Source of the DNA: Microcaldota archaeon
GTDB taxonomy: Archaea; Micrarchaeota; Micrarchaeia; Anstonellales; J096
Length of the DNA stretch: 64,000 nt
Assembly: GCA_015522475.1 (NCBI GenBank)
Contig: WAMF01000018.1
Location: forward strand, 88,833-152,832
Direction: 5' to 3'
Each line of letters begins with the position of its first letter. Positions within the stretch are counted from its first letter, which is position 1. Of the stretch, positions 1-53,000 are shown in pieces. Under the pieces are notes generated by a model. That model did not search any database. It was not told where the DNA came from and saw nothing but the letters and a program-made list of their open reading frames with translations. Both the position numbers and the translations under genes were made by a program.

Positions 1-1949
1 ATGTAATTTTTACCATTAACTTCTAAGCTCTTAACGATGTTGCTTATGCTGCCCGTCGGAGCGATGCTGAGGACAGCTATATTCCTCATGCCATATTTCT
101 CGACAAGTTTCCTAACAGAGGGCTCGATAGATTCGTTGAAGAAGGGGTTCTTCTTGTATTTATCCCAGTCGTATGTAGGAGCCGTGCCCTTTTCTTTAGC
201 CACCTTAGCTGAGCTCTCATAGGCTTTGTTTGCTATTCTCTTCATAACCTCTCCTATTACTTTTATGCCGTCTTCACTGTCATAGGCATAGCCTAGCTCC
301 ATGAGCATATCCGCTATAGCTACAACACCCATACCAATCCTTCTAGTGGCTTTAGCCCCTTCTACGCGCTGCTTCTCAAGAGGGTTTAAGTATATGTTCC
401 AAGAGATAATGTTATCGAGGAAGCGGTGGAGATGCTCGACGGCCCGCTCAAGTAGGCGCCACTTAATCTTAGCTTTAGACGTGAAAGGATGGTCAACCAT
501 CCTCGCTAGATTTATACTTGAAAGGTTGCAGCTACCACCATCCTCGAGAGGCACTTCCCCACATGGGTTCGTTGTGACTATAGGCTTGCCCACATAGTTG
601 CTTGGACTGTATCTAGTGACACGCGTCCAGAACATAATGCCGGGTTCCGCTGTCTTATAGTTGCTCTCTACAAACATGTTCCAGATCTTTCTAGCGTCGA
701 CGAGAACTTTTATCGAACCAACCTCTCCGCTCGCGAAGTAAAGTAAGTAGTCGCCACCCTGCCTTAGGGCCAAATCGTAATTATAGTTGGCTAGAGCTAC
801 ATGATAATCACCGTAGACGTCGCGCTTGTTTGCAGCCTTAAAGTCTTCCTTGTTTAGAGAAAAGCCATAGTTTTCTGCTATGTAAGCAGCCATCTCTTCG
901 AATGTATTGAAAGCTGCTAGGAACTCATACTGTTTGATGTCACGGGAGGGCATTTCTATAGAGTAATGTACGTTAGTGTAGTCTTGAAGGACATCTGTGC
1001 GCGTACCTTTTATGAGCTTCTTATATATGAGATATTTTCGACCATAGCGGTTTCTCTCGACGACAGCATGCATAAATTCGTCGCTGGCCTTTATACTTAT
1101 GTTGGCAAAGCGCACTTGCGTATTCTCCATGACAGTCTTTTCAATAAGTGCTAGCTGCTCTTCTGTGAACTTACTGCTCCATTTAAGCTGATCTCTTATC
1201 TGCTCAGTCGTCCAATTAGGGACTTGCTTCACTTTTATGAAGCTCTCTATATCGGGATGTTTTGCATCTAGCGTAAGCATAAGAGCTCCACGCCTTCCAC
1301 TCTGTCCTATGAGTCCTGTCGTTGTGGAATAAAGTTCCATAAAGCTTACAGCGCCAGTGCTTTCGTCGGCTGCATTGTGAACAACGGCTCCAGCGGGTCT
1401 TAACACCGCAAGATCTATGCCAATGCCTCCACCGTAGCTGTAGGTTCTTGCCGCTTCATAAGCGGCGTTGTATATGGATTCTATGCTATCATCTTTTATC
1501 ATAGCCACAAAACAGTTTGCCAGCGTCTTTGAGCGGTAAAAATCGCCGGCTCCTGCCAAAATTCTACCGCCGGGAATCCACAATCCGTCAAACAAGTCTT
1601 TGTAGAAAATTTCTGCCCACTCCTCTGCTTTACCGTCATCTTCAACAGCCGCTATAAAAGCAGCTACTCGCACAAACACATCTTCTGGCCTCTGCTCTAT
1701 AGGATTTTCTGAGAGATCTTTCAAGTAGTACTTACGCCTATATATGCTCTCTGCCAACTCGTTTCCGCCCAAATAGTTGGGATGTGTCGGCAACTCACCC
1801 TTAGCCATCTTTTGCCTCAAGTAGAGATAGAGGCGCTTGTATCGCTCAAGCCATTCCTTTGGCGCCTTTTTGTATAGAGCGCTTTCATGATCTAACATTT
1901 CGCGCAGTGCTGGAGGCACCGCGTCCTTTTCTACTAGTGCTTCTTTCAT
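1..1949 (-). CDS. nrdJ: Adenosylcobalamin-dependent (class II) ribonucleotide reductase, 3' end cut by window
   Basis: Reduces ribonucleotides to deoxyribonucleotides for DNA synthesis using a B12-derived thiyl radical. About 650 residues are visible; the C-terminus lies beyond base 1. Recognisable motifs are the substrate-site segment NPCGEVPL followed by a CNLSSINL segment, and IAPTGSIS near the window edge. An N-terminal ATP-cone-like stretch is not obvious. ATG at 1949 is chosen because GGGGG lies about 6 bases upstream; an in-frame ATG at 1955 would sit directly on that site. After APTGSIS the sequence reads NIVKSLEVNGKNY rather than the common short link to SSGIEP, which looks like a family-specific insertion. 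Class II rather than class I is inferred from overall resemblance. The enzyme is oxygen-independent. Confidence 0.9.
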   Translation of the reverse strand, partial: MKEALVEKDAVPPALREMLDHESALYKKAPKEWLERYKRLYLYLRQKMAKGELPTHPNYLGGNELAESIYRRKYYLKDLSENPIEQRPEDVFVRVAAFIAAVEDDGKAEEWAEIFYKDLFDGLWIPGGRILAGAGDFYRSKTLANCFVAMIKDDSIESIYNAAYEAARTYSYGGGIGIDLAVLRPAGAVVHNAADESTGAVSFMELYSTTTGLIGQSGRRGALMLTLDAKHPDIESFIKVKQVPNWTTEQIRDQLKWSSKFTEEQLALIEKTVMENTQVRFANISIKASDEFMHAVVERNRYGRKYLIYKKLIKGTRTDVLQDYTNVHYSIEMPSRDIKQYEFLAAFNTFEEMAAYIAENYGFSLNKEDFKAANKRDVYGDYHVALANYNYDLALRQGGDYLLYFASGEVGSIKVLVDARKIWNMFVESNYKTAEPGIMFWTRVTRYSPSNYVGKPIVTTNPCGEVPLEDGGSCNLSSINLARMVDHPFTSKAKIKWRLLERAVEHLHRFLDNIISWNIYLNPLEKQRVEGAKATRRIGMGVVAIADMLMELGYAYDSEDGIKVIGEVMKRIANKAYESSAKVAKEKGTAPTYDWDKYKKNPFFNESIEPSVRKLVEKYGMRNIAVLSIAPTGSISNIVKSLEVNGKNY

Positions 1950-1955
1950 GCTCAT

Positions 1956-2288
1956 CCCCCAACCAACTTAAGCCAGCTAACTTAAGCCAACCAGCTTAAA
2001 CGATCTATGCGCCTATTGCTGTGCCATCCTGCACCATCATTTTCCCGGCAGTTTCGCCTAGCTGCACAGCATTTTAGACGCGCATGTTTAGCGCGCGTTG
2101 AGCAGCTCAGCGTAGGCAGCTTAAGTCAAGCCACCTCTTTCCCTCTTTCGCTTCCAGACGACTTTGCAATCTTCAGCAACTCCGCTTCAGCTCTCGGTAA
2201 TCAAATCAGCCTCAAACTCTCCTTCAACAGTCCCTTTACCCTTTACTTCCTTACTCTCTTTAAGGCAATTATCTCGACCAATGCGCTT
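1956..2288. other. Non-coding stretch upstream of nrdJ
   Basis: This gap between the nrdJ start and the pilin-like gene holds the period-14 CTTAAG repeat next to nrdJ and presumably the nrdJ promoter (TTTAAG near 1995-2000). An open frame on the plus strand covers 2007-2381, but it has a random-looking Ser/Leu/Arg-rich composition, no ribosome binding site and overlaps the pilin-like gene, so it is not called. Nothing else recognised. Confidence 0.5.
1962..2000. repeat. Short tandem repeat upstream of nrdJ (period 14)
   Basis: The 11-base unit AACTTAAGCCA occurs at 1965-1975 and 1979-1989, with a degenerate third copy (CCAGCTTAAA) to 2000. Each copy holds a CTTAAG palindrome. A further AGCTTAAG lies near 2118-2125. 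The array sits between the nrdJ start and its presumed promoter, so it could be an operator, but nothing here matches an NrdR box that I can recognise. Confidence 0.5.
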
Positions 2289-2900
2289 CTAATGCATCGT
2301 CACAACTTTTGCCACGACGTGTCCCGTTATGTTGTATGGGCCAAAGCACGCGTCTGCCTTAGGGCAGGTCGTATACGTTAATACAATGTCCGCATTGAAC
2401 CTCTGGCCTTTTATCAAGCGCAGCTTGTTTGACGAGAGTGTGAAGATGTGCGACTCCCCAGGTTGCAACTCTATATCCAAGCCCGTCTGAAGACAATTAC
2501 ACAGGCGAGAGCTGTACTTTACTGCATTGATATGAACAGGACTACCAAAGTTGTTTGTGAGGTTTAAGAGGAGCTTGTCTACTTCTCCTTGATCTACCGC
2601 AGCGAAATTGTTGCATATAACTTGAGGGGGAAACATGCAGCTCTCCCTATAACTTTGGTTTATGTTTTGAAGGTAGACACCCAAAGCTGCAAGCACAATA
2701 ATAAGAACGAAAAGTGCCCAACCATATGTCATAACATACTCGACAGCGACTTGAGCCTTGTGGAACCCTCTGTGTTTGCCTTGCTCTCCTTGCTCTTCGT
2801 TAGAAATATGGAAGATTTTATTTTTCTCCTCAGATAAACTAGTATATCCTATATGCTCATTATGTTCACTTGAACAATTTGAAGGCCAAGCCCCTTCCAT
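2289..2900 (-). CDS. Type IV pilin-like protein with class III signal peptide
   Basis: Predicted membrane-anchored, extracytoplasmic pilin-like subunit of 203 residues. A hydrophilic N-terminal stretch of about 49 residues is followed by KA/QVAVEYVMTYGWALF and a hydrophobic segment (about residues 55-78). Q50 would be mature residue 1 and E54 mature residue 5, the pattern cut by archaeal prepilin peptidases (PibD/EppA). The remainder is a beta-rich, Cys-containing domain that would face outside. ATG at 2900 is chosen because GGTGG lies 5 bases upstream and a box A (CTTATAAACC, 2931-2940) predicts transcription starting near 2910; the in-frame ATG at 2915 would lie upstream of that. The long leader before the cleavage site is unusual. 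The structure it builds is unknown. Confidence 0.75.
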   Translation of the reverse strand: MEGAWPSNCSSEHNEHIGYTSLSEEKNKIFHISNEEQGEQGKHRGFHKAQVAVEYVMTYGWALFVLIIVLAALGVYLQNINQSYRESCMFPPQVICNNFAAVDQGEVDKLLLNLTNNFGSPVHINAVKYSSRLCNCLQTGLDIELQPGESHIFTLSSNKLRLIKGQRFNADIVLTYTTCPKADACFGPYNITGHVVAKVVTMH

Positions 2901-2930
2901 TAAATCCACCAACATATACTCTGCCCAATG

Positions 2931-2940
2931 GTTTATAAGG
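2931..2940 (-). promoter_or_regulatory. Box A promoter of the pilin-like gene
   Basis: CCTTATAAAC on the minus strand lies about 36 bases upstream of the ATG at 2900, so the predicted leader is about 10 bases and just includes the GGTGG site. Confidence 0.6.
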
Positions 2941-3235
2941 CTTTACTAGATAAGAGTGGCAGACTACGAAAACACTTTTAAACCTGCTGGGAAAACGTCG
3001 ATACGTCGGGAAAGCATGTCCACAAATCTTCGAAAGATAAAATAAAAAGGAAAAGAAGAAAAAGGGATAAAGGGACGAATAGAATGGATGAATAGAGCAA
3101 ATGAATGAATAAAACAAATAAGTAGTAGATAAATAAGAGGAAAATAAGAGGAGAGAAAATGATGAAAATAAATAAAAAAATAAATAATGGAGCATCTGAC
3201 GAAATATTACAGACTGGCAGAAACTGGCAGAAAAA
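2941..3235. other. Non-coding stretch with a 160-base polypurine tract
   Basis: From about 3031 to 3190 the plus strand is almost entirely A and G with scattered T, built of loosely repeated AATAGA/ATGAATA/ATAAATAA elements. On the minus strand this is a T/C-rich run immediately downstream of the stop at 3236, so it may act as a transcription terminator for the GNAT-like gene. A frame reads through it on the minus strand (to 3195), but its Phe/Ser/Leu/Tyr composition only reflects the pyrimidine bias. Confidence 0.55.
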
Positions 3236-4195
3236 TCAGTAAACCGCTTTACCTCTTTCCCAATCCCAACGGACAGTTGTTAACCCAGCAACACCTTGAG
3301 GGATGTCCGAATATGCAAGCAATATGTTATAGCCCCATGCCATAACATCGTCCGGCCTTGAGCTATGCAAAACTAGCGGCGTCTTTCCTAAGAGTACAAA
3401 CATAGCTCCATTGAATATATGAAAGTTTATGACGCTGTCCTTTGGCCTGTATATGCCCTTTTTCTCGTCGAATACAGCTTCCAAAACATAATGCTCGACT
3501 TCCTCTCTAGAAGGCTCTTTAGCATAGTACATGCGCAGACTTCGAGGGGCGCTGTACGGCATGATTAAATGTGTCGATGAGAAGCGATCGCGTGCATAGT
3601 TTATGAGGTAAGCGGCAAGCTTTGCCTTCTCAAGACGCTTATACAGCTCCTCAGACAGCTCATCCTTAAGAGAAGCCAAGCCGTTAACTATGGAAATGCA
3701 GTAAAGCACCTTTCTCCCATCGTGTGGAGACGGAAGCTCTTCCTTAAGAAAGTTGTAGCTGCGCGGGACGTCTGAATATGAACTCAGTCCCGCTTCAACT
3801 GTCGTCAGCATGGCCAAAGGCTTGCTCTCGTAGAGAAGGACTAGTTGTGTTTTAGGCCATCTCTCAGAAAAAGCGTCGAGTTCTTCTCTTGTTATGCCTA
3901 GCTTTCTAAAGCGCTCCTCTTCTTTTTTTCTCTCTTCTAGAGGCGTATTGGTTTTTTCAAAGGCCCTATGCAATCTGCTCATATTAGCCCATGAGGCCCT
4001 ATACATGAAAATGAGACGTTCGATGAAAGTGTCTCGCTCTCTGCCTTTTAAACTTTCAACAACGTCCTTATAGGTTGCGACGCGCAAATTAAGCAAAGGC
4101 TGCTTCTCGTGGCTTGTCTCCTTGGCCTTTAAGAATCCTTGTCCAAAAGGTGCCAAAGTTAAGACACCATCATGGCTTTGTTCAGAATTGCCCAT
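3236..4195 (-). CDS. GNAT-fold acyltransferase-like protein, probably degenerate
   Basis: 319 residues. The C-terminal half resembles long-form GNAT proteins: a tract THLIMPYSAPRSLRMYYAK, a segment DSVINFHIFNGAMFVLLG, and the closing DDVMAWGYNILLAYS correspond to blocks ending in GYNVLIxY in that group. The acetyl-CoA loop expected after the central strand (Q/R-x-x-G-x-G/A) is not visible; the position reads SIVNGLASLKDELSEEL. It may therefore bind a different ligand or be inactive. The N-terminal 90 residues are charged and helical. ATG at 4195 fits a leaderless transcript from the box A at 4218-4228; ATG at 4207 is possible. Substrate unknown. It is transcribed away from the Tat-signal-like gene. 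Confidence 0.55.
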   Translation of the reverse strand: MGNSEQSHDGVLTLAPFGQGFLKAKETSHEKQPLLNLRVATYKDVVESLKGRERDTFIERLIFMYRASWANMSRLHRAFEKTNTPLEERKKEEERFRKLGITREELDAFSERWPKTQLVLLYESKPLAMLTTVEAGLSSYSDVPRSYNFLKEELPSPHDGRKVLYCISIVNGLASLKDELSEELYKRLEKAKLAAYLINYARDRFSSTHLIMPYSAPRSLRMYYAKEPSREEVEHYVLEAVFDEKKGIYRPKDSVINFHIFNGAMFVLLGKTPLVLHSSRPDDVMAWGYNILLAYSDIPQGVAGLTTVRWDWERGKAVY

Positions 4196-4217
4196 ATTAA
4201 AATACATGTAGGAAAAG

Positions 4218-4228
4218 GTTTAAAAAGT
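4218..4228 (-). promoter_or_regulatory. Box A promoter of the GNAT-like gene
   Basis: CTTTTTAAACC on the minus strand is centred about 27 bases from the ATG at 4195, which implies a leaderless mRNA and decides the start. Confidence 0.6.
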
Positions 4229-4249
4229 ACACAGCCCATCTCCTCCATA

Positions 4250-4260
4250 AACTTTATTAA
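4250..4260 (+). promoter_or_regulatory. Box A promoter of the Tat-like protein gene
   Basis: ACTTTATTAAG lies about 35 bases upstream of ATG 4291, leaving a leader of about 10 bases. Confidence 0.45.
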
Positions 4261-4290
4261 GTCTTGCATGCCCAGCTTATTGTGGAAGCC

Positions 4291-4917
4291 ATGAAAGCAA
4301 CAAAGAAATACTCTCGAAGGGCATTTCTAGGAAAAATGGGAAAAGGTCTAGAATGGCTAGTAAAAACAGGTGCTTTCGCAAGCATAGCCCTATTCTTAGA
4401 AAGGAAGCCAAGGCCTCTTGAAGCTGCAAACGACAATAATAAGAAGGCCTTATTTTTGAAGCTATTTACGTCGCTGCAGAAGGAATTTAATAGAATGCCT
4501 AAGGAGAAGCTCATAAAGTTAGTTGCAGATAATATGTGGAAAGCTTATTTTCCAGAAGGGGGATCATGGGAAAAAGGTGTGAAGGACAGAGAGAAAGCTA
4601 TCTTAGAGTTTGCGGAAAATGTCGTTAAAGAGTTATTAGAGAAGGGACAAATAACAGAGATAAGGAAAAAGGAAAGACAGTTCAAAGGAATGGTTATGGA
4701 TTTGGCATCCTTGCTTACCATTAAAGAAGATACTGCTTCAATAGGCTTAGAAATAGGAAAATTGAGCCCCACAGTCAATCAACTGCTTGAAGAGATAAAA
4801 AGGCGTAAGCGTCTCTCTGAAAAAAGCCTCAAAAGCCTCATTTATCTTCAAAGCCTTCTGTGGGCTAATGCTCTAGCATATATGTATCTAAAAGATAAGA
4901 AGCCCAAAGAGAAATAG
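4291..4917 (+). CDS. Unknown protein with Tat-like signal sequence
   Basis: 208 residues, not recognised. The N-terminus has SRRAFLGK (residues 8-15), matching the twin-arginine consensus S/T-R-R-x-F-L-K, then a moderately hydrophobic stretch (WLVKTGAFASIALFL) and a possible cleavage site after PLEA. The rest is a charged, mostly helical domain with many Lys/Glu and no Cys. Together this suggests export in a folded state by the Tat system. No Tat translocase gene is in the window. ATG at 4291 has a weak GTGG upstream; a TTG at 4264 in the same frame is less likely because box A (ACTTTATTAAG, 4250-4260) predicts a start near 4281. The gene is more A/T-rich than its neighbours. Confidence 0.6.
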   Translation: MKATKKYSRRAFLGKMGKGLEWLVKTGAFASIALFLERKPRPLEAANDNNKKALFLKLFTSLQKEFNRMPKEKLIKLVADNMWKAYFPEGGSWEKGVKDREKAILEFAENVVKELLEKGQITEIRKKERQFKGMVMDLASLLTIKEDTASIGLEIGKLSPTVNQLLEEIKRRKRLSEKSLKSLIYLQSLLWANALAYMYLKDKKPKEK

Positions 4918-5030: not shown

Positions 5031-5101
5031 GCGCCAGTAGTCTAGTGGCAGGATATCAGCCTCCCACGCTGGGGACCCGGGTTCAAATCCCGGCTGGCGC
5101 A
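5031..5101 (+). tRNA. tRNA-Gly (anticodon CCC)
   Basis: Full cloverleaf: acceptor stem GCGCCAG/CTGGCGC, anticodon stem TCAGC/GCTGG with the 7-base loop CTCCCAC giving anticodon CCC (reads GGG), T arm CCGGG-TTCAAAT-CCCGG, and discriminator A at 5101. The 3' CCA is not encoded. A T-rich run (TCTCTTTTTATTTCC) follows and probably terminates transcription. The gene converges with the membrane protein gene on the other strand, with only 7 bases between them. Confidence 0.95.
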
Positions 5102-5793: not shown

Positions 5794-7797
5794 TCATATG
5801 TAGTAAGTGCAAGGCGCGTTATATACAGTAACATTCACTTTGCAGCGATAATCTATAGGTATGCTATTCTTATAGCCCGATGGATACTGAATTGTTCTGT
5901 ATTGGTCATCTGCAAGTACTGTAAGTAGATACGATGTTGAGTTGCCCTCTGCTATCTGATCAAAGAGCTCCGTATAGTCTGGGATGACAGAGAGATAAGC
6001 AGTCTCGCCCCCGTAGCCAAAAGCATGCTGGCCTATTTGCACGTTTGCCACTTGTATTAAGTTGTAGTAGTCCTCGTCTGTTTTTACAGCTGTATTTTCA
6101 TCACAGCCCAAGAGCTGGTTTGTGTAGAGATTAAAGCCGCAGAAAATGTCAGAGTAAGCTGGGAAGCCTGGAATGATGAGAAGAAGAGGTGGATTGGGAG
6201 AGCAGAGAGCCCCTGCCAAGCATAGGACTATTTTGTTGGCCGTCTTATTTTCAACAGGTGAGGGATCAGCAGCCCCTTCTGGATCCGCTACAGCTGTGAT
6301 GTTAAATATAGCCAAGTTGTCGAGAGGACATGTAAGTGTAAAGGGTATTTTGTAGTTGCCTGAGCCGTTCAAGGTGATAGGCACCCTCTCTAAGTCTGAA
6401 GGTGTTATATCTTTCCATTCTTCTCCATTTATACGCCCCCTTATCTTAAGTGTTGTATTGAAAGCACCTACACCGGGGTCTGGGACCACGCCTATGCTGA
6501 CATTGTAGTGGCCTCTAGCTGGTTGATCCTCTGGCTGGCCTTCCTCCTTTCTCAGTATATCAGGGCCTTGGATTATTACAGTGAGGTGAGGATGAGCTAT
6601 GGGAATATCTATACCTGCTATAACATCCGGCAGCTCAGTAGTACCATCACAAGCTGTCCTTGGATCTGGCTCGAGCGTCAGATTTACATGAACAGGCCCT
6701 GGCCCAGAACCTGTCCTGTTAATACGAACACGCACACCTTCTTCTTGCTGAGGAGCCACTTCTAAACCCACATCTAAAAGCTCTGCTGAAAAGCCTTCAC
6801 TTGCGTTAGCATCTATAACTTTGAGATTCGTATTACCTGTGTTATGCACATAGAGCAGCACATCAACAGGAAAATTAGAGAGCTCTGTTGGGTCAGAGCG
6901 AGTGATTTCAGCAGCTGGTTGCCTTTCTTCTCTAACAACAGCATACGAAAACACTGTGGATGAACTAGAATGTTGTGAGTTACCATAAGGAAGAAGTTTT
7001 CCGGAATACCTCTTTCCAGAGCTAGTGGTAGCTAGGGCCACGACAGCCAATTTCTCTATACGAACTGTCGATGATAATTGGCCTCTACCTTGAGAAGAGG
7101 GTGCAGTATATGTAAAACTCACAGGATTATCGCCTTCATAAACATTCTTAGAAGAGCCCGCAGTAGAAAAGCGAAGATAAAAAAGGGGGTTGATACTGAC
7201 ATCTATCCATTCGTAGTTGCCCTGACTATATTCCACTTTGCAATACCTATAAGTAGAAGAATCATCGGGGTGGATGCCTGTAATTGGAGGACTGCCTTTT
7301 AGAAACGTCATTGAATAGCCGGAGGTACTTGAATCTGAGAGATGCCTACTAAATGTATTTTGTAACCAATTGTCCCAAGAAGTTTCGTCGCTCTTACTCC
7401 ATGTAAGTGAAGAGGTAGGAGCACTTGTATGAGATGAAAGGCTTTGTGCTCCTGTATGAGCAAAAACACATTCTGTGGGATTACCTTGTTCAAGATTTGT
7501 TACCCTTTCTGAAATGGATATAGTAGCCCCTGGGCATACATGGATTTCTGAGGAGGTGGAATAAAGAAAGTCTGCCTCGTCAACTGAAAAAGCATATTGT
7601 GTAGTAAAAGAAATGGGAAGTGTAATATTGTAGTCAACAGTACCTCCAACCCGTATAGATAAGCTTGTAGAAGTACTCCCACTTCCTGCACTCACTGGTG
7701 CTGCATATATAAGAGCTGGTATAGCCAAAAGGAATAAAAAGAATATTCCAACTACCTTCTTCACATTTTTTAGAAGAAGAATCTCGCTTGTATTCAT
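5794..7797 (-). CDS. Exported protein of unknown function, partner of the giant protein upstream
   Basis: 667 residues. An N-terminal signal peptide (VVGIFFLFLLAIPALIYA, cut near APVSAGS) precedes a Ser/Thr-rich, beta-rich ectodomain with many N-x-S/T sequons and scattered Cys pairs. The middle (about residues 300-460) has alternating strands of Ig-like or CARDB-like character, including YVHNTGNTNLKV, which resembles the start of CARDB-type adhesion domains. No C-terminal membrane anchor is visible, so it may be secreted or held by a partner. ATG at 7797 is chosen because GAGGTGA lies 8 bases upstream, inside the 14-base gap after the giant protein's stop; a GTG at 7809 would overlap that site. 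The two genes are an operon. Function unknown. Confidence 0.7.
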   Translation of the reverse strand: MNTSEILLLKNVKKVVGIFFLFLLAIPALIYAAPVSAGSGSTSTSLSIRVGGTVDYNITLPISFTTQYAFSVDEADFLYSTSSEIHVCPGATISISERVTNLEQGNPTECVFAHTGAQSLSSHTSAPTSSLTWSKSDETSWDNWLQNTFSRHLSDSSTSGYSMTFLKGSPPITGIHPDDSSTYRYCKVEYSQGNYEWIDVSINPLFYLRFSTAGSSKNVYEGDNPVSFTYTAPSSQGRGQLSSTVRIEKLAVVALATTSSGKRYSGKLLPYGNSQHSSSSTVFSYAVVREERQPAAEITRSDPTELSNFPVDVLLYVHNTGNTNLKVIDANASEGFSAELLDVGLEVAPQQEEGVRVRINRTGSGPGPVHVNLTLEPDPRTACDGTTELPDVIAGIDIPIAHPHLTVIIQGPDILRKEEGQPEDQPARGHYNVSIGVVPDPGVGAFNTTLKIRGRINGEEWKDITPSDLERVPITLNGSGNYKIPFTLTCPLDNLAIFNITAVADPEGAADPSPVENKTANKIVLCLAGALCSPNPPLLLIIPGFPAYSDIFCGFNLYTNQLLGCDENTAVKTDEDYYNLIQVANVQIGQHAFGYGGETAYLSVIPDYTELFDQIAEGNSTSYLLTVLADDQYRTIQYPSGYKNSIPIDYRCKVNVTVYNAPCTYYI

Positions 7798-7811: not shown

Positions 7812-10800
7812 CTACTTAGATGGTCCTAATCCACCCTCACCTTCCTCCCTTTTAGGAACGTAAAATGTAATATTGAATGACCAAGTCGGCGGCATCTTCT
7901 TACCTAAATAGTACTGCTGGCCAAAGTCAACCGTCACATGCACGCCATTTATTAGAGGTGTTATTTCTACGTTGTAACCAGCCAACATACCTCCCTGAGT
8001 TGTAGCTCCTTGAGGAAGTGAGTTAAGCTGATTATATATAGAGTGGTATGCTAAATATATGCCTAAAAGAGTTAAATAAAAGGGTGGCAGACTATGGATA
8101 GGTGGAACAAGAACACGGAACCCTGCTTTCATGTAGCCATAATATTGTTGTGGATTCTTCAGGAAAGTCTCCATATCTACCTTATCTACCTTTTTCCCAT
8201 TATCTAGAACTACTTTTACTCCTCCACCAAACTGGACAAGTGCTTGAAGAACAGCACCATATAAATTAACAAATAATTGAGTATCAGAGCTAATGCCCCC
8301 TAGAGTAAGGCTCCCCAAATTCAATGAGGAGAGAAGCTCTGAAGTAGTTGCATACCCCTCTCTCTTGTTTATATAGTAAATCAAAGGTAGTGTCCCCATT
8401 TTACCATAAGAGAATAACAACTGTGTAGCTACATTGGCTCTTTCACCACTATAGGAGTAAGTAAAACCTACAGATCCTCCACCTTCACTTATACGGCCCT
8501 TCCATTTTTTCGAGAGCATGGCAAAGCCATACCAAATATTGGCTTTTATACCCAGCGTTGCATGAGGCCCTGCCTTTACTAAGCTAAGCTCGGCTCCCAC
8601 ATGAATCCTTCTTAGAAGGGTTTGTGCAGCTGCATTTAAATCATCCAAATCAGAATTTTCGTCTACATCAGAGAGCCTATAGAAGTACACCTTCTCTGCC
8701 TTTGTATCAACGTAGAGAAGAACATAACCTAGACTCCCTTTAAGGACAAATGTGTTAAATCTAGCATCATATGCAACGACAGGCATGGACACAAATGTGT
8801 TATGAAGGACTTTATCAACCCATGATCTTAAGTTGTTGTTTTCAGTGAAATCGTTTGCCAAAGTATTTGCAAAACAACCTTCTAAACCTTTGAATGGGCC
8901 ATCCTCTGCAAAAAACTCTTTTAGTATAAGCTTAGCATCAGCATCACTGCACGAACCCGAGGCACAATTAAGCAGAGCATCCAAAAAGGCATTTGCGTCA
9001 TCGGCATCCTCAAAGTACCCACCACTAACGAGACCAGACGGAGGAGTTTGGAACAAGAAATACGAGAGCTCCTCCCGAGCCGCATCTTTATACCCCTTCT
9101 TATATTCACTTACAATATCATCTAAAGTAACTGTGTCTTCTCGATTATCTGGATTGGAATATGTGACTGACCTTATATATTTGAATATAAATCCAACATA
9201 GGCTCTTCTATCTTGAGGTGTAAACTTTGTGTGATCCTTGTTTAAAAGGTCTTGTAGAGCGTAAAGCTCAGGAAGACTAAACTGTAGGTTGTACTGAGGC
9301 TCATACTCTTTAGTCTTCTTATCCTTTTTACTCTTATAATAGAACCTATTTTCAGACGGTTTTGCATACGCGTAACGCGGTGCTGCTGGCGAAGGAAGTG
9401 ATGGAACATTTACATTAGCTCGAGGGATATAGCCAATAGGTCCACTTATTCTCGTTGCGCTCCCTTTTGAAGGAGAGACTACAGGAGCAATAGTGATTGT
9501 AGCCGGTTGTGTGGATTCAACAGACCCAGAAAGCGGCTGTGTAGAGAGTGAAAAGTTTATATTCCCAGGAATTTTTGAAGGTAGGATTGTGGGATTGGAA
9601 GGGAATGCTCCAGAGTAGCCTATATTGTATGGCTGTTGGATAGCAAAAGGATAAGAAAGGCCAACAAACTCAGGATGTTTCTTTACATTATTGTATGCCT
9701 CTAACAGCACATCTAGAGGCAGATCTGCTCCATTGATCTCTTCAAACTTCTTACCCAGTCTTAGTGCTTGAAGATGGCGAGCGTATGCCACTGTATTAGC
9801 ATACAGTAGAGCCTCCTTACTAGTAGGAGGAAATAGAAGGAGACATCCATTTTTACATACGTCGGTTTTAGATGGTAATATTCTCTCAAGAATAATCCTC
9901 CTGGAATCTTTGATTTCCATGGGCTTCCCATCAGGCCCAAACATATAGTAATGTGCTTCCCCATTAGGCATTACTTGGAAAAGAAGGGCGCCTTCCTTCA
10001 AAGATTGGCTAAACACTTCATCTTCCTTAATTATCCTTCCAGCATCCTTTAATAGGCCCGCCTCCTTTAGACGGTCTAAGAGCTTTGTATTAAGTGCGCA
10101 ATTGCCATTTCCATCGCATCTAACTAATGCATCCAAACCCCATTTATTGTATAAAGAACTAGGTGAAGGGCCATACAGAGCATATTTGGGAATGGTGGTC
10201 TTTCCTCCTCCTCCAGCATAGGGCACTGCAACTTCCCCTCCAAGTTTAAGCAAGGTCTCCTGTAGAGAGAGGCCGGGTTTAGGTGATATAATACGGTATT
10301 TGCCTTTTTGCGAATATACTAAGCAGCAGATAACGGGCTTCTCCATAACAATTTTCTTTTCCTCCCCTTGAGGTGTTACAACTGTTTGTGTAACAGGCAT
10401 TGACTTTATAAAGAAGTAAAAGTCTTTTCCATCTTCAGATTTAAGGTGAATGTATGTTGATGCCTGGTATTTTTGTAAAATGGTGCCTATTTTAGTCTCT
10501 ACAAATTTAGGTGGAAGTTGAGATATCTGTCGAGAATCCAATGTCACAGGCACAACTTTGTTACCTACTTCGAAAGAACCTGTTAATTGAACTGTGTTTG
10601 CAAATTGTCCAATGGCTGGACATCTTTCGTTCAAGTCCAAGGGGTCTTGTGTTGAGTCGAGTGTATAACTACTTATAGAAGTAATTTGGCTCATCCTTTC
10701 TACTTCCATATACACGAGGTACTTTATAAGGGCTGTAATCTGGAATGGCCCAAAAGATAAGGCAAACACATATGCATTCAGCTTATTGTTATTGATATAT

Positions 10801-12959
10801 TCCATCACAGAAGACGAAAGAATGCCCTTTTTCTCGATTGTAGGCAAAAATATATTTCTAGCTTCTCTCCTCTTCTTATAAGCTGTATTACCCCATTGTT
10901 CTTCACCTTTTTTAGGTATAAAGTACTCTCCATAACTGAGCTCCAAAGCACTTATAGACAAGATAAGTTGAACCAGCCTTTCCTTCTTTAATTTTCTTGG
11001 AAGTTTGCCATATATGAGCTCATAAATCTTTTGCGAAAGCTTGAAATCGCCACCCATCCATGAGCCTCTAAAGTTGAGATAAAGAGGCGCCTCAGTATTG
11101 GCTTCAGATATATTGCCAACCACTTCTTTAAGAGGTATAAAACGAATATTTATCTCTGTCTTTTCCTCTGATGTGGCAACTTCAAGTTTCCCTGAAACAA
11201 GACCCGACGTCATATTAAATGTAATGGGGGTATAAAGGTTTCCCTTATCATCTGTTTTTACTAAAGGTGTAGAAACATTCTCGGGTAAGAATAATTGATT
11301 AAGCAAGGCTATGTTACCCTTATTTAAGACGGGTTTGCCATTCCGTACAGACCTAAGAAGAAAGCGCTTGTAGACATACTTTTTAACCTTGTTCCCTTCC
11401 TTCTTGAAAAAGAACACCTCTGCTGCCACGTTGCCATTTTTATCTGTATAAAAGCTCACAAATCCGGGCACTTTGTAAAAGCCACCTTGCTGTTTTTGAG
11501 GCAAAAGAATCCATCCACCATACGTATTTACAAACAAAAATTTATCCTGTTGTTTTTTGCCTATAAGTTCAAAAGCATCACCCGACGTAATATTTTTACC
11601 TGGCACACCCAGCTCCTTAGCTATACTTCCATTCCACATAGGCTTCATTATATTATTGAGATTGCTCTTGAAATTCTTGTAAGATTCTGAAATATTTTGG
11701 CTTATTGTCTCTATATAGTGAGTTGTCAATATAAGGATTGCCATCTCATCGAAAAAGCGGAAGAACTTTTCTGAAACTTCACTCACAAGCTTCCCGTTTT
11801 TCTTTTTTGTGACTGTAGGTGTAAGCCCATATTTCCCCGCCAGCTTCAGCACTTCGCTATAAAAGGTATATGTTGCATCTGGCCCTAAATAATCTTTTAG
11901 AAGAGCATATGCATCCTTTCCATTCTTTTTGTATTCTTTAAGTAGCCTTGAGAAGAAATAATACGTTTTCAACCCAGCAACAATTCTCCGTGACGAGGAT
12001 GCCGGATTATAAAGAAGCACAGCCATTACCATTGTCTTGGGACTTTGAAGAAGCTTTAAGAGATTCTCACGAGACCATCCACATTTCTTGCAGGCTCTTT
12101 CAAGCTCAATTATGTTGGGATCGTCAGTATTGTTGAGGAGTGACCTTACACGCTGATACAATACCCTATATCCTTTCTTAGCTGCTTCATGCAACTTTTT
12201 CTCTTTCCCTTCTAACTTTCGATTATTATAGTTTACAGCAGTTAGGTAATAATCTAAAAACAAGAAAAGGACACCCAATGAAAGTGAGTTATCTATATAT
12301 GGGAGCCACTGAGAAGATGCATTTGTGAATATACGATTTTGCGGCCCAAGATTATATAACTGTTTAAGGAATGGTGGAAGAGAACCTTCTTCCCCCACTT
12401 TAAAAAGGCGGATAGAATAATTACCTGAAACATGGGTAGAAACAGTAGTAGGAGCGTTTTCAACAGTGCCTCCAGCTGCATGATGGTGAGCACCCCTTTC
12501 TTCTCTCTTGCTCTGTAAGAAGCCCAACGACTCCAACGCAGAAAGTAGTTGAGGGGAAGAATAGGCTGATTTTTTATCTACAGTAACTCCTTTAGTTTGT
12601 ATTTTAAATACCATGCTCCCTATATCTACAGAAGTATCCTCTACTATAGAGGTAAGCAAAATCTTATATGTGTCCTTGTTATTTTTGTCCCTTGAAAAGG
12701 TAAGCTTCATAGTTAGCTTACCAGCTCCTTTTATTTCTCCCTCTATAATTAACGCTGAGCCTTTGATTTTTACAGAAGAGACCTTCATCACTTGCTTTCC
12801 GCCATCTGCATAGTTTATGACAAATTGCTTTTTCTCCTCTATTTTGCTCTTGACCATTCTTAAGAAAGCGCTTACCTTAAGTGTTTTCTGAACACCAGGA
12901 GCAGGAATAGTAGTTGTGTTGCCAGAGCTGCTTCCTCCGTTGTCTCCACCACTTGCCAT
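7812..12959 (-). CDS. Giant protein of unknown function (1715 residues)
   Basis: No signal peptide or transmembrane segment is visible. The N-terminus is Gly/Ser/Asn-rich (MASGGDNGGSSSGNTTT), then an alternating beta/helical region, a long helical region (about 190-460), and a segment around residues 660-740 with ALELSYGEY and SFGPFQI that weakly recalls lysozyme-fold enzymes. A Pro/Ser-rich linker lies at about 1130-1200, and the last 300 residues are Gly-rich amphipathic strands. Cys occurs in close pairs (CKKC, CDGNGNC, CKNGC, CASGSC), suggesting disulfides or metal sites. ATG at 12959 is chosen because GGTGG ends 4 bases upstream and the box A at 12986-12997 lies inside the longer reading frame that begins at 13016. 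It is the first gene of an operon with the exported protein. Not matched to any family I know. Confidence 0.7.
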   Translation of the reverse strand: MASGGDNGGSSSGNTTTIPAPGVQKTLKVSAFLRMVKSKIEEKKQFVINYADGGKQVMKVSSVKIKGSALIIEGEIKGAGKLTMKLTFSRDKNNKDTYKILLTSIVEDTSVDIGSMVFKIQTKGVTVDKKSAYSSPQLLSALESLGFLQSKREERGAHHHAAGGTVENAPTTVSTHVSGNYSIRLFKVGEEGSLPPFLKQLYNLGPQNRIFTNASSQWLPYIDNSLSLGVLFLFLDYYLTAVNYNNRKLEGKEKKLHEAAKKGYRVLYQRVRSLLNNTDDPNIIELERACKKCGWSRENLLKLLQSPKTMVMAVLLYNPASSSRRIVAGLKTYYFFSRLLKEYKKNGKDAYALLKDYLGPDATYTFYSEVLKLAGKYGLTPTVTKKKNGKLVSEVSEKFFRFFDEMAILILTTHYIETISQNISESYKNFKSNLNNIMKPMWNGSIAKELGVPGKNITSGDAFELIGKKQQDKFLFVNTYGGWILLPQKQQGGFYKVPGFVSFYTDKNGNVAAEVFFFKKEGNKVKKYVYKRFLLRSVRNGKPVLNKGNIALLNQLFLPENVSTPLVKTDDKGNLYTPITFNMTSGLVSGKLEVATSEEKTEINIRFIPLKEVVGNISEANTEAPLYLNFRGSWMGGDFKLSQKIYELIYGKLPRKLKKERLVQLILSISALELSYGEYFIPKKGEEQWGNTAYKKRREARNIFLPTIEKKGILSSSVMEYINNNKLNAYVFALSFGPFQITALIKYLVYMEVERMSQITSISSYTLDSTQDPLDLNERCPAIGQFANTVQLTGSFEVGNKVVPVTLDSRQISQLPPKFVETKIGTILQKYQASTYIHLKSEDGKDFYFFIKSMPVTQTVVTPQGEEKKIVMEKPVICCLVYSQKGKYRIISPKPGLSLQETLLKLGGEVAVPYAGGGGKTTIPKYALYGPSPSSLYNKWGLDALVRCDGNGNCALNTKLLDRLKEAGLLKDAGRIIKEDEVFSQSLKEGALLFQVMPNGEAHYYMFGPDGKPMEIKDSRRIILERILPSKTDVCKNGCLLLFPPTSKEALLYANTVAYARHLQALRLGKKFEEINGADLPLDVLLEAYNNVKKHPEFVGLSYPFAIQQPYNIGYSGAFPSNPTILPSKIPGNINFSLSTQPLSGSVESTQPATITIAPVVSPSKGSATRISGPIGYIPRANVNVPSLPSPAAPRYAYAKPSENRFYYKSKKDKKTKEYEPQYNLQFSLPELYALQDLLNKDHTKFTPQDRRAYVGFIFKYIRSVTYSNPDNREDTVTLDDIVSEYKKGYKDAAREELSYFLFQTPPSGLVSGGYFEDADDANAFLDALLNCASGSCSDADAKLILKEFFAEDGPFKGLEGCFANTLANDFTENNNLRSWVDKVLHNTFVSMPVVAYDARFNTFVLKGSLGYVLLYVDTKAEKVYFYRLSDVDENSDLDDLNAAAQTLLRRIHVGAELSLVKAGPHATLGIKANIWYGFAMLSKKWKGRISEGGGSVGFTYSYSGERANVATQLLFSYGKMGTLPLIYYINKREGYATTSELLSSLNLGSLTLGGISSDTQLFVNLYGAVLQALVQFGGGVKVVLDNGKKVDKVDMETFLKNPQQYYGYMKAGFRVLVPPIHSLPPFYLTLLGIYLAYHSIYNQLNSLPQGATTQGGMLAGYNVEITPLINGVHVTVDFGQQYYLGKKMPPTWSFNITFYVPKREEGEGGLGPSK

Positions 12960-12985
12960 TTTACCACCAAATATACTACTCAACC

Positions 12986-12997
12986 TATATTTAAAAA
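12986..12997 (-). promoter_or_regulatory. Box A promoter of the giant-protein operon
   Basis: CTTTTTAAATATAGG on the minus strand is centred about 32 bases upstream of ATG 12959. It lies within the frame if translation started at 13016, so it decides the start. Confidence 0.65.
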
Positions 12998-13244
12998 GGT
13001 TGCGTAGAGCCTTCATATAGAAACAAAGGCTTCATAGAATTCACGGAACTAGAAGTAGAAACCAAGAAGGAGAAAAAAGAAGTGCGTCCCTAAAACTCTA
13101 GAGCTGGCAGCCCAAAACACCACATTAAAGCGGCATCACCATCCTGTCAATAGGGCGTTTGTCGCCAACAACTTACGCCTAGCTCTAGCTCAAGTCATAA
13201 AACACAAATAAAAATACAGACAGTGGGCAAAACTTTATGATGCT

Positions 13245-13840: not shown

Positions 13841-15175
13841 ATGAGGTATACATCTATTGCGCCATCTCGGGTAATCGAAAGAGAAAAACAAATGGGTCAA
13901 AAGCTAGCCTTTATTATACAGCAGGAACTGAAGAAAATAGGTGCCTTAGATGGTGACTTAGGAAGCGCTGGTAGAAGGAAGAGTGGATTGAGGAAAATAA
14001 CTGTTTATCTATCACCCTACCACAAAACTGCTCAAATTTTAGGCCAACTTGAGGCGCTATCCCAAGCAACGAGGCTAAAAATTGGTATAGAGGAACATGC
14101 AAAGTCAGACACTCTCATATACATCGAAAATAAAAGAAGCCAGCTAGGCAATATCGCCCTTCTAATAAATCGCTATGGAGACATTGCGAAGGAAATATAC
14201 AACGCCGGCAGTCCTGCCAAAGATACGCCTCCAGATATAAGTCCCTGCAACGATAGAGAGGATGGGTTTGCTCTTTTCAGAATTTCAAATGAGCATATGG
14301 GTACTGAAGATGATTACAGAGGTATAGAGATAAGCGCAAAGTTGGTGGATAGAAAGGAGGTTATGTTTGTAAAGGACAAGAACATAAAAGCGCTAGTCAG
14401 AAAAGGCCATAAAGAAAACCTCGACGAAGTTTTTGCATACCGCTTTCCACCCTACATTGTGCTAGCGGTCGTGGATGGCATAAGCCTCGTCGAAATTGGG
14501 CCAGAAGTTATGAGCTGGGAAAAGAAGGTTACTAGAATGGAAGCTTTCAGGGACGTCATAAAAGACAATTCAGCTTACCTCGAAGAAGCGCTCGAAAATC
14601 CCACCGCTTATATTAAGTGTCTGATTCAGGACCTAAAAACGCGAATTGAAGCCATGGAACATATCGTAGAATGGGAAGAGGAAGGAGGTGTGCCTGCCGC
14701 TATAGTGCTAGCAATCATAAACCAAGAGAAGGAAAAAGGTCAGCTCTATTGGATGAGTGACGGCACGGCTATCTTGAGGAGATATGGATGTGCCTATTCG
14801 TTGATAATCAAAAGAGGAAAGAGCTCTGTAGAAGATGCATTTATAGCAAAGAAGCTCCGCCATAATTCACGGGTAATCATACCCTTCAAGTCAGAGGATA
14901 TATTGAACTTGGAAGGGGTTCCCCCTGTTGAATTCAGTATACATAAAGGAGACACTCTTTACCTCACATCAGATGGCATCGCAAGCCTATGGGATGAACT
15001 TTACAAAGACAGCAAACAGATGAATAACCAGTCATTAATTGTGCTACTTGACAAGATCATGGATATAAAAGGCAGAATTAAACTATCGGATAGGACTGGA
15101 GATGAAAGGGAAAGCCTAAGTGGACAGGTAAAAGAGATCGACGATATAAGCATATTAAAGTATACAAAAGGATAA
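13841..15175 (+). CDS. PPM/PP2C-type protein phosphatase-like protein
   Basis: 444 residues. The C-terminal half has a degenerate PPM layout in the right order: VVDGIS (D212-G213), a segment GQLYWMSDGTAILRR (about 301-314) like the strand carrying GDSR in PP2C, GDTLYLTSDGIASLW (S377-D378-G379), and EIDDISILKY near the C-terminus (about D437). These Asp positions would bind the two metal ions used for phosphoserine/threonine hydrolysis. The first 200 residues have no recognised domain. Spacing is closer to SpoIIE-type than to classical PP2C enzymes. No transmembrane segment. Target unknown; no kinase gene is nearby. Confidence 0.65.
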   Translation: MRYTSIAPSRVIEREKQMGQKLAFIIQQELKKIGALDGDLGSAGRRKSGLRKITVYLSPYHKTAQILGQLEALSQATRLKIGIEEHAKSDTLIYIENKRSQLGNIALLINRYGDIAKEIYNAGSPAKDTPPDISPCNDREDGFALFRISNEHMGTEDDYRGIEISAKLVDRKEVMFVKDKNIKALVRKGHKENLDEVFAYRFPPYIVLAVVDGISLVEIGPEVMSWEKKVTRMEAFRDVIKDNSAYLEEALENPTAYIKCLIQDLKTRIEAMEHIVEWEEEGGVPAAIVLAIINQEKEKGQLYWMSDGTAILRRYGCAYSLIIKRGKSSVEDAFIAKKLRHNSRVIIPFKSEDILNLEGVPPVEFSIHKGDTLYLTSDGIASLWDELYKDSKQMNNQSLIVLLDKIMDIKGRIKLSDRTGDERESLSGQVKEIDDISILKYTKG

Positions 15176-50014: not shown

Positions 50015-53000
50015 TCACTCCCTTTGAATGTTAAGCTTGTTCTTCGTAAAACGAACTATTACTAAGATGATAAGAAGGACTAATATTAAGAGAAGGAGGC
50101 TGCCAACTATAAATACTGGATTCGTGATATCTAAAGGTAAATTCTCCTTCTTAGCTACAGAAACACTAACGCTGTCAATAGCAGAGCTTGCCTTTATAAC
50201 AACTCTATATTTCCCTTTAGGTAAAAGAAGCTGGACTTGACCCTTACCTTTAGCTGTAGAGACAAGCGTATTGCCTAAATAAAGCTCAGCTGTGAACTCT
50301 GTGCCATTCGCAAGCATGGGCTTTATAACGACAGGTACTGTTTCTGAAGTGGAGAGTGGCACACTAACATTGTAGATTTTTTTGGCATTTCCGCCAGTTT
50401 CTGACTTGTACACAACCTTTGTTGTTTGCAGTGATGCTAGAGGTTTAGGTGAGACATATTGATAGATGCCCGGAGAGCGGGGTACATAGCTGCCTTTTCC
50501 TTGAGAGTCCGTTGTGAATGTATAACTGGCGTTCGGCCCAACGGCTGTTATTCTTAGAGCTGGAATAGGATTGCCTTCATCGTCATAGACATAGACAGTC
50601 ACAACATAATCAACATATGCAAGAGAAGGCGCCACAACATTGACTTTCGAATTGGCTCCTAAAATAGGTGCACCTCCAGACGAACCTTCACCAGACAGAG
50701 ATGTGCCGGGCTTAGTCGCATTCGACGTTTGGTTGGCTGTCTGATTGGCAGTTTGATTCGCAGTTACGTTTGTCTGATTGGCTGGAGTGGAACATAAGGT
50801 TATGCTTTTTGTCTTCATAGCAGCCTTGTAACCCGACTTTTGAGCTACGAACGTGTATGTGCCGTTCTCTGTAAGTATGAATTCCACTGTACCATCTGAG
50901 CTTGTTGCTTTGCTTTGTTTGCTACCAGAGGGCGCATCTGCTTCCACATCAGCTCCTTCAACGGCTAAGCTGCTAGACGTGACCTTAGCCTCTAATGCAT
51001 TGTCGGGGCAAGTAAGATCACCCAAGCTTAAGTATAACTGAGGCTTCGGCTTTTCTTTGGGTGGAGCTGGATAACAACTAGCGGACGTAGCAGCACATAA
51101 CTCGTTGCCGTATTCTAATATAACACCTCTGCTGCACGTGAATGCTGGCTCTAGAGTTTTTGTCCCTGTTATGTTGTTAGCGTCTGTTATTGAGAGGTTA
51201 ACAGCGTAATAGGCGCTTGAAGGAACGGTTGCTGTGCCTTGGCATGTAGCGTTTGTATTGTTTATTGAACATGGAACGGTTGCTGAGCCAACTGCGCCGT
51301 TGTTGTTGAAGAATATTACGATTAAAGTTGTGTTGTTAGTAAAGCCATTTTCTGAATAGGCAGAAACGTTGAAGTTTATTGTTTGAGATGTGTTGAAGTG
51401 GTTGTGGTTTAACAGGGTTGTGCCGTTGTTTAATGTGATTTCTGGCACACGATAAGAATCAAACGTGTATGAGCCTGCCCGGACATTGCCCCCGTTATCG
51501 TAGACCTCATAGTTCACAGCGTGTGAACCTGTTTGCAAGTTGCCCACAAAGAGTGTGCAGTTTAGAGCTGTTTGCGTTCCAGAGCCATCTATGTCAAATG
51601 TGCAATGGTCTATACCCGATGAATCATTGGCTCTTATCTGTAGGGTTACGTTGTTTGCGTAGATTGTAGAGTTTGGATAGACGCTGGTTACTGTCGGTGG
51701 AGTTGTATCTGTTGATAGGTAGGTAGGAGCGTGGTATATGGCGTTGACGTTTCCTCCTTCCGGCAAAGCCATTAAGTCAATGGTGTAACTGCCGTTTGAA
51801 GTGTTGGTTAACATAGCCAGGTTTAAGGCTAAGTTGCCAGTAAAGTTGTCTGAGTGGGCCTTGAGTGTATTAGGTGCTGAGGTTACCTTTGTGAAGTTCG
51901 TCGTTGTGCCTGTCATGTACGTATTGTTGTCGCTCATATTTGCGTTGAGTTGGCCGAGTGGATGGTTGGATGTACCAACGTATAGGTCGAGAACGGCGTT
52001 GTTTAACCCTGTCTTTGAGAAGTTCACTGTGAAGTTATCGCCGTTCTTGACGAAGTCTGTCCATTGGACGAGAATGCCGTTTATCGTTGTTGAGCGGTAG
52101 TGAGGATATGTGTTTGAGTGGGTGATGCACCAGAACGTGTTTACACAGTCGGGGTCTGCACAGTCTGTCTTTCCATCCCTATCGTTGTCTATGCCATCTC
52201 TACAACCACCGGGGGCTGCTGTTTCTGTTGTGTATTTGGCTGGGCAGTCGGGGTCTGCTGAATCGATTAGGCCGTCTCCGTCGTTGTCGAAGCCGTCGTT
52301 GCAGTAATTGCTTTCGTTCTGAGCAGCTACATGGCCATAGATATCCACGGGCTTGCCGTAACAGTCGGGGTCTTGGGCATCTATTAAGCCATCGTGGTCA
52401 TCATCGTAGCCGTTCATGCAGCTGTCATCAGCTATGTCTTCATGGGAAGGACAGGGCCTACAATTTCCACCCTTGCCCGCGCAGTCGCTGTCTGCACAGT
52501 CCATCTTGCCATCGGCGTCGTTATCGAATGCATCAGAGCAGCTCTTCTCATGACCGTATTCACATTTTTGTAGGCCTATGGCGTTACCTACTAAGCCATT
52601 ACAGTCGGGGTCTGCACAGTCTATGCCTGTTGAGTTATTAACTAAGCCGAGGTTTCTCCATGCCCATTTATTAATATCGTAGGTTTCCCATGTCCTTGGT
52701 ATGAATTTATCTAAATCATTGTCTTTGCCATCAGCACACCAGTAACCCGTTGCATTGCTATTGTGCAATACCCCATCAGGACTTGTAGCCTCTGTTAATG
52801 GGCAGGCAAGAGCACTAACGTTGATGTTGTTGGGATCGGCTAAGCTGCCATTCTTGTATCTTAAACGGCAGTCGTAGTCTTGGCAGTCTGTGTAGCCGTC
52901 TTCGTCATTATCGAAGCCGTCTGTACAATTTATTTCTTCGCCGAATTGGCAGACGTGGCCTGCCGCGTCAACAGCTCCATTACAGTTGGGGTCTCTACAA

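Follow-up and report, generated by a model that had tools for sequence, protein, structure and literature searches.

What is a protein of 1715 residues that lacks a signal peptide doing directly ahead of one predicted to be exported? The question is raised by a gene pair in the 64,000-nucleotide stretch of DNA analyzed here (the window), which belongs to a 910 kb genome of 88% completeness (G000). A first-pass annotation had recognized no known family in the large protein and had proposed, from its exported neighbor and its paired cysteines, either non-classical export or a toxin or adhesin with a carrier.

The large gene and its predicted secreted partner

The coordinates of the features discussed are given in Table 1. 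The large gene lies in an open frame that spans positions 7812-13016 of the reverse strand and yields 1715 aa from the ATG at 12959. This ATG is favored as the start because a TATA-like sequence, TTTTTAAATATA, ends 26 nt ahead of it; the counterpart gene of genome G001 has a TATA-like box at a nearly equal distance. Since the frame extends upstream of this ATG by 24 residues at most (1739 in total), it hides no signal peptide. The N-terminus of the 1715-aa form scores low as well (best 15-residue hydropathy mean of 0.60 within the first 60 residues), so frame and hydropathy agree with the description of a 1715-residue protein without signal peptide. Signal peptides throughout this work were judged by N-terminal hydropathy only. 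An assembly artefact is unlikely, because the protein is recorded identically on two contigs.

The view that the protein belongs to no known family was borne out: searches of Pfam, NCBIfam, PHROGs and PADLOC gave matches at chance level only, and PDB sequences gave none (best E 0.17). The Ig family was likewise absent from it in a Pfam-type domain search. In a set of 5.8 billion proteins it matched only itself among 7992 candidates scored, whose lengths were limited to 0.55-1.75 of that of the query, and when a two-row alignment of the C-terminus served as query, none of the 7997 candidates scored reached E <= 1. Nor were counterparts in relatives found by similarity searches that started from the 1715-aa sequence.

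Its composition is as had been described. Five neighboring cysteine spacings are of six residues or fewer, against 0.46 expected, a number reached in 2 of 20000 random placements, and cysteine pairs are present in the large proteins of both G000 and G001. The reported Pro/Ser linker and Gly-rich beta C-terminus correspond to 12% Pro and 10% Ser in residues 1051-1200 and to 17% Gly in residues 1651-1715; alternating hydrophobic and polar residues are enriched in the last 300 residues (1 of 1000 shuffles), as they can also be in Ig-type proteins. What had been called a helical core is recovered as a probably helical region. Two further impressions gained by eye, internal repeats and a lysozyme-like motif (Glu at about 672-674, SFGPFQ at 735), were discarded, the former being not significant and the latter finding no support in Pfam or PDB sequences.

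The partner gene starts with an ATG at 7797, 14 nt behind the stop of the large gene. Its product has a hydrophobic N-terminus (15-residue hydropathy mean of 2.86) that fits a Sec signal peptide by hydropathy, and the claimed pairing with an exported protein thus stands as a prediction. Structure models of the two proteins were both poor over most or all of their length. The Ig part of the partner had block pLDDT values of 71-93 over residues 291-400 and 52-73 over residues 401-530; for residues 1200-1715 of the large protein the mean was 42.5 and no barrel was seen. A fold search with the partner model returned varied Ig-like and other beta-rich chains at low TM-scores. No CARDB match was listed at E <= 1 for the window partner in the Pfam-type search. 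That of G001 gave E 0.042, those of G006, G009 and G010 lay above the cut-off, and profile comparison related the window-type partner to the partners of G004, G006, G008 and G009 with 98% probability.

Table 1. Positions of the gene pair, its parts and the neighboring membrane protein gene in the window
Feature	Positions	Strand	Basis
Three-TM protein, 153 aa	5109..5570	-	37% identical to G001 protein in same place
Predicted secreted partner, 667 aa	5794..7797	-	ORF, hydropathy, profile searches
C-terminal pentapeptide CTYYI of partner (Cys at -5, Ile at -1)	5797..5811	-	Sequence, comparison
C-terminal domain of partner with six invariant cysteines	5797..6240	-	Alignment, profile; model of low confidence
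Ig/CARDB-like domains of partner	6223..6930	-	Structure model, fold search, profiles
Predicted signal peptide of partner (limits by eye)	7699..7797	-	Hydropathy
Large signal-less protein, 1715 aa	7812..12959	-	ORF calling, family searches, hydropathy
Beta-signal-like motif DFGQQYYL, about 37 residues before end	7905..7928	-	Motif scan
Candidate C-terminal module, residues about 1285-1715, beta-rich toward end	7815..9107	-	Weak homology evidence
Pro/Ser-rich linker, residues about 1105-1215 (limits by eye)	9315..9647	-	Composition
Probably helical region, residues about 190-450	11610..12392	-	Helix-moment z 2.44, 250-residue window from residue 151
TATA-like box TTTTTAAATATA ahead of large gene	12997-12986	-	Sequence

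The pair in related genomes

Used as a single sequence, the 667-aa partner matched 3 of 99 genomes, its own included. The exact end APCTYYI followed by a stop occurs in 3 of the 301 genomes of the phylum, again including its own, and a three-row partner profile found matches in 17 of these 301. A seven-row alignment of the partner end contains seven invariant cysteines and an invariant last Ile; six invariant cysteines lie behind the CARDB part (Cys57, 63, 84, 96, 183 and 194 in first-row numbering). A profile of this C-terminal domain was matched to the model end in 9 of the 10 genomes of family f1, with no match in the remaining one (G003). It matched 32 genomes; the other 23 match the CARDB front part only, reaching position 92 of the 161 of the model and in one case 122, and the loci of 6 of these 23 were inspected. 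Ten listed partners, which represent five lineages and not ten independent ones, all have Cys at -5 and Ile, Leu or Met at -1 (CTYYI, CRKRI, CEDYL, CNYYI, CRYYM) and a mean Cys content of 2.45%. Not counted among them are the partner of G007, whose front is incomplete and which ends in CRERI, and that of G081, whose frames are broken. The partner of G010 ends right behind a CARDB repeat, and its last Cys may, by eye, not be at the equivalent position.

The side upstream of the partner could be read in five of the nine family genomes with the end domain (G000, G001, G005, G006 and G009). All five contain there, 14-37 nt from the partner, a large ORF without a family above cut-off, of 620 to 1715 aa with one cut at a length of at least 1518; for G001 the distance is counted to the ATG and would be 3 nt from an earlier TTG. 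G005, of a further genus, has a 535-aa partner ending in CRYYM and a 772-aa signal-less protein 17 nt upstream. Two further families of the order have similar pairs, with 1077 and 870 aa at a spacing of 14 nt in G010 and 794 and 699 aa at 0 nt in G015. The arrangement is thus kept in relatives, as the first-pass annotation had suggested be checked. When all 17 loci of the three-row profile were viewed by eye, four were found at a contig edge (G002, G004, G008 and G277) and seven had a large ORF directly upstream (G000, G001, G006, G009, G010, G015 and G081, the last with 524 aa ahead of broken partner frames). The other six of the 13 readable loci (G028, G034, G046, G068, G276 and G289) were counted as CARDB proteins lacking such a neighbor, which weighs against the two-partner reading proposed below. 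Of these six, G034 does have a 933-aa signal-bearing ORF ahead of the CARDB protein within a run of like ORFs, in G046 the upstream ORF has 446 aa, and in G276 the contig edge truncates it at 286 aa.

The genes that flank the pair differ among genomes, being inorganic pyrophosphatase and tRNA-Gly genes in the window and other genes at L005 and L102. Behind the partner, G001 has in the same place a relative of the three-TM protein. Among 59 genomes no convincing relative was found elsewhere, with none at E <= 1 in G005, G006, G009 or G010; a match in G002 was judged false by eye, as it is antisense to another ORF and contains a stop. In G006 and G009 other membrane-type ORFs follow the partner. 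The part of the three-TM protein in the system is uncertain, because the distance from the partner to its gene is 223 nt in the window and 9 nt in G001. Two other ORFs of this genome were noted in passing. One, at 13841-15175 (+) of the window, encodes 444 aa with a C-terminus that by eye is PP2C-type phosphatase-like, without a Pfam match above cut-off; the other, at L037:13785-14984 (-), encodes a 399-aa protein with a long helical stretch, without a family above cut-off or, by eye, a signal peptide.

The large proteins differ widely. Their lengths are 1715 (G000), 620 (G001), 772 (G005), 1241 (G006), at least 1518 (G009, at a contig edge), 1077 (G010), 794 (G015) and 524 aa (G081), and those of G006 and G009 are the only clearly homologous pair of the eight (29% identity over 990 residues, E 1e-85). 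In BLAST and hhalign the remaining comparisons scored no better, or little better, than decoys, and several shuffle tests likewise gave no homology. Between G000 and G001 an SRP54-like protein (named by eye) is 70% identical and the partner about 30%, and the large proteins reach a best E of 0.27. We note that in G006 two adjacent ORFs of 366 and 1241 aa (L059:2-1102 and 1136-4861) both resemble one G009 protein, within which the N-terminal part is seemingly repeated, and that in G005 a 1279-aa ORF without a family (L102:7089-10928, reverse strand) overlaps the 772-aa ORF by four bases. The latter, whose N-terminal hydropathy is borderline (1.41), is perhaps the N-terminal part of the giant as a separate gene.

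Traces of a common C-terminus were looked for by several comparisons. A window scan of G000 against G001 gave best scores within the shuffled maxima. Residues 201-420 of the G001 protein place best within the candidate C-terminal module of G000 (residues about 1285-1715), nearly flush with the C-terminus; in 200 shuffles the score was reached by 10, the place by 12 and both by none. When the segment compared stopped 200 residues short of the C-terminus, the proteins of G000, G001 and G005 ranked each other first in 6 of 6 cases (4 to 22 placements each), with a mean rank fraction of 0.374 over 47 comparisons of large proteins, and the last 220 residues gave no clear placement signal (0.436 over 54 comparisons). 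The three-way alignment of these proteins has 27 identical columns against 16.7 in shuffles, a count that 1 of 100 shuffles equaled; when 24 other windows of G000 were used instead, no more than 25 such columns were obtained. A profile of the G000 and G001 proteins did not find that of G005. Residues 1-200 of the G001 counterpart gave no usable match to the 1715-aa protein (39 of 150 shuffles as good), and a G006/G009 repeat-module profile scored at decoy level against the other large proteins. What the large proteins have in common is thus their position and, to a slight degree, a C-terminus rich in beta character. Of the two proteins it is the partner that is conserved and the giant that is hypervariable, which is not visible from the window alone.

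Possible locations of the large protein

We consider it likely that the predicted secreted partner and the large protein cooperate on the cell surface and form an archaeal system that has not been described before. The explanation that we favor, at a probability of roughly 45%, is a surface module of two partners that is specific to this lineage, with a large half that is hypervariable and an Ig/CARDB half that is conserved. The overall interpretation of the first-pass annotation proved too narrow: the lack of a family, the predicted exported partner and the kept arrangement stood, and cysteine pairs proved no argument for export by themselves. Such pairs may also form inside the cell, because each of the three congeneric genomes encodes a relative of protein disulfide oxidoreductase (in G002 with TIGR02187 above cut-off, in G000 and G001 as relatives). 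In the sister genus, moreover, the number of cysteines in the large proteins is 0-2.

That oxidoreductase makes cytoplasmic disulfides plausible and so also fits a rather unlikely alternative, in which the large protein remains in the cytoplasm and supports an envelope complex from the inner face, as a scaffold or in the manner of a chaperone, and the three-TM protein would link it to the secreted partner. In its favor, a signal peptide is absent from all four large proteins of families f1 and f2 with complete N-termini (G000, G001, G005 and G010), and a three-TM neighbor is present in two genomes. N-glycosylation sites point the same way. The genome encodes an STT3 homologue, and such sites number 255 against 108 expected in six exported proteins and 16 against 21 in 18 cytosolic ones (sets chosen by eye); in the eight large proteins they are not enriched (52 against 55.7) and are thus at the cytosolic level. 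As an argument these sites are weak across the family, since three of four sister-genus partners lie below expectation and only that of G006 above. Against a cytoplasmic scaffold, faster change than in an exposed partner is not expected, four of the genomes searched, as stated above, gave no match to the three-TM protein at E <= 1, and the G015 counterpart, an order-level relative in the giant's place, has a signal-like N-terminus (hydropathy 2.07). The composition score of the 1715-aa protein (-0.11) lies between those of the same cytosolic (-0.50 or lower) and exported (0.14 or higher) sets and is neutral as to location.

The window contains a further giant, which is a surface protein as judged from its sequence: a protein of 3735 aa (50015-61222, reverse strand) with, by eye, a signal peptide and a C-terminal TM segment. 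It has seven stretches of acidic double-disulfide repeats (NF033662); a carboxypeptidase-regulatory-like domain scored above cut-off and a beta-helix did not reach it, and glycosylation sites number 168 where 66 would be expected. Directly upstream of its gene (61280-63844, reverse strand) lies that of an 854-aa Ig-domain protein, with Big_13 above cut-off and OmpL47-like matches below.

A more specific form of the surface reading concerns the tails of the large proteins. The beta-signal of outer-membrane proteins follows the pattern polar-x-Gly-x-x-hydrophobic-x-hydrophobic, which NVGFTLHF (G001), RLGLNINF (G009) and KAGVIYEI (G005) fit. A motif of this kind is present in the last 40 residues of six of the eight large proteins, G015 and G081 being the exceptions, and in none of ten partners, a count made post hoc in which G006 and G009 are related. 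Shuffled tails gave a mean of 1.7 and reached six in 3 of 5000 trials, in a test devised after the tails had been seen. The copies in G000 and G010 lie farthest from the C-terminus in the set, that of G000 at 37 residues. Beta-alternation scores say nothing on a barrel, because those of the eight large proteins (z 0.24 to 4.17) overlap those of four E. coli outer-membrane controls (0.28 to 4.17; OmpF 0.54, OmpX 0.28) and those of partners go up to 5.57. The signal peptide that is a hallmark of outer-membrane proteins is absent from the 1715-aa protein by frame and hydropathy. It seems improbable that Micrarchaeota of this order have a two-partner envelope system of their own in which the giants end in an outer-membrane-type beta module with beta-signal and sit in an outer layer with the disulfide-rich Ig partner and its Cys-x-x-x-Ile/Leu/Met end tag.

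Quite improbable is delivery of the large protein as an effector into a host or competitor, with the partner as adhesin or carrier. Hypervariability, a C-terminal module that is possibly common to proteins whose N-terminal parts differ greatly in length, and a partner of adhesin-like Ig/CARDB kind would fit such a role. Against it, Pfam, NCBIfam, PHROGs and PADLOC gave no toxin or enzyme family for the 1715-aa protein, Pfam and NCBIfam gave none above cut-off for its counterparts, and injection machinery was not noticed next to the pair. That an orphan reading frame merely shares a promoter with the partner would agree with large proteins of different genera being without demonstrable homology, and is made very improbable by the tight spacing, the differing neighbors and the presence of a large ORF in 5/5 family genomes and in G010, G015 and G081 (in the last by eye, with broken frames). 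Finally, an element integrated at tRNA-Gly (5031-5101) was rejected, because a stretch of 13 bases of the tRNA recurs nowhere else in the window and relatives have different genes around the pair, as were a viral origin, the large protein having no relative in viral contigs or phages (the plasmid search covered the neighboring pyrophosphatase only), and a defence system, with one chance-level match (E 0.51) for the small TM protein.

A putative two-partner surface module

The gene order, its tight spacing, the missing signal peptide, the recurrence of the pair, the conserved partner domain with its end tag and the nearly unalignable large proteins are direct observations. A two-partner surface module could work as follows. 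The partner would pass through Sec, fold with disulfides and then serve as dock or clamp for the large protein, the Cys-x-x-x-Ile end acting as a recognition tag. The large proteins would be diverged or exchanged versions of one component and would reach the envelope, and the beta-rich C-terminal module would hold them there, possibly as a membrane beta-barrel or else clamped by the partner. The long variable N-terminal part may face a host or neighbor cell and change under an arms race.

Bacterial two-partner secretion systems and autotransporters likewise have a large protein with a dedicated second one, and their C-terminal beta module with an outer-membrane-type end motif may have a parallel in the tails of the giants. 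The module described here differs from them in its archaeal host, in the missing signal peptide and in that no Omp85/POTRA or passenger family was detected; with Pfam, neither FHA-type cargo nor an Omp85 transporter family (TpsA/TpsB) was found in the window proteins or their counterparts.

Among archaeal systems VARTIG of the Thermococcales is similar. According to the consulted sections of its description (PMC8416519), it is a hypervariable module in a putative operon, its secreted protein has Ig/CARDB domains, a short motif at the C-terminus is conserved, and a role in membrane or secretion is predicted. These are likenesses to the pair studied here, whose predicted secreted partner has Ig/CARDB-like domains, and the VARTIG authors found no closely resembling module elsewhere. 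By the same sections, the Ig protein of VARTIG is large, first in the operon and varies at its C-terminus, whereas here the Ig partner is second with a conserved C-terminal domain, and it is a protein without Ig match that stands before it and varies. The end motifs differ as well, being DNNxxxGG in VARTIG and Cys-x-x-x-Ile/Leu/Met here; DNNxxxGG is absent from the ten partners. For the micrarchaeon Mia14, of the same phylum, strain-specific secreted CARDB/PKD surface proteins with CARDB-like adhesion modules are reported; the sections consulted (PMC5498576) describe neither pairing with a large signal-less protein nor a six-cysteine end domain. In titles and opening lines of abstracts on Micrarchaeota envelopes, secretion and outer membrane, on giants and beta-barrels of DPANN archaea, on non-classical secretion and on archaeal outer-membrane beta-barrels, no such module is described.

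How tiny DPANN archaea recognize and hold their hosts is presented as an open question in the part of the literature consulted (PMC11329633). The conserved partner, with its six-cysteine domain and end tag, provides a searchable anchor that leads to the hypervariable protein. If the outer-layer form of the two-partner reading were true, archaea would have an equivalent of the outer-membrane display of bacteria, one that in this family works without a signal peptide. A review reports, in the part consulted, an inner and an outer membrane in ARMAN-type cells by cryo-tomography (PMC4243693), and a beta-barrel in the large protein, if real, would touch the question of whether such cells have a true outer membrane.
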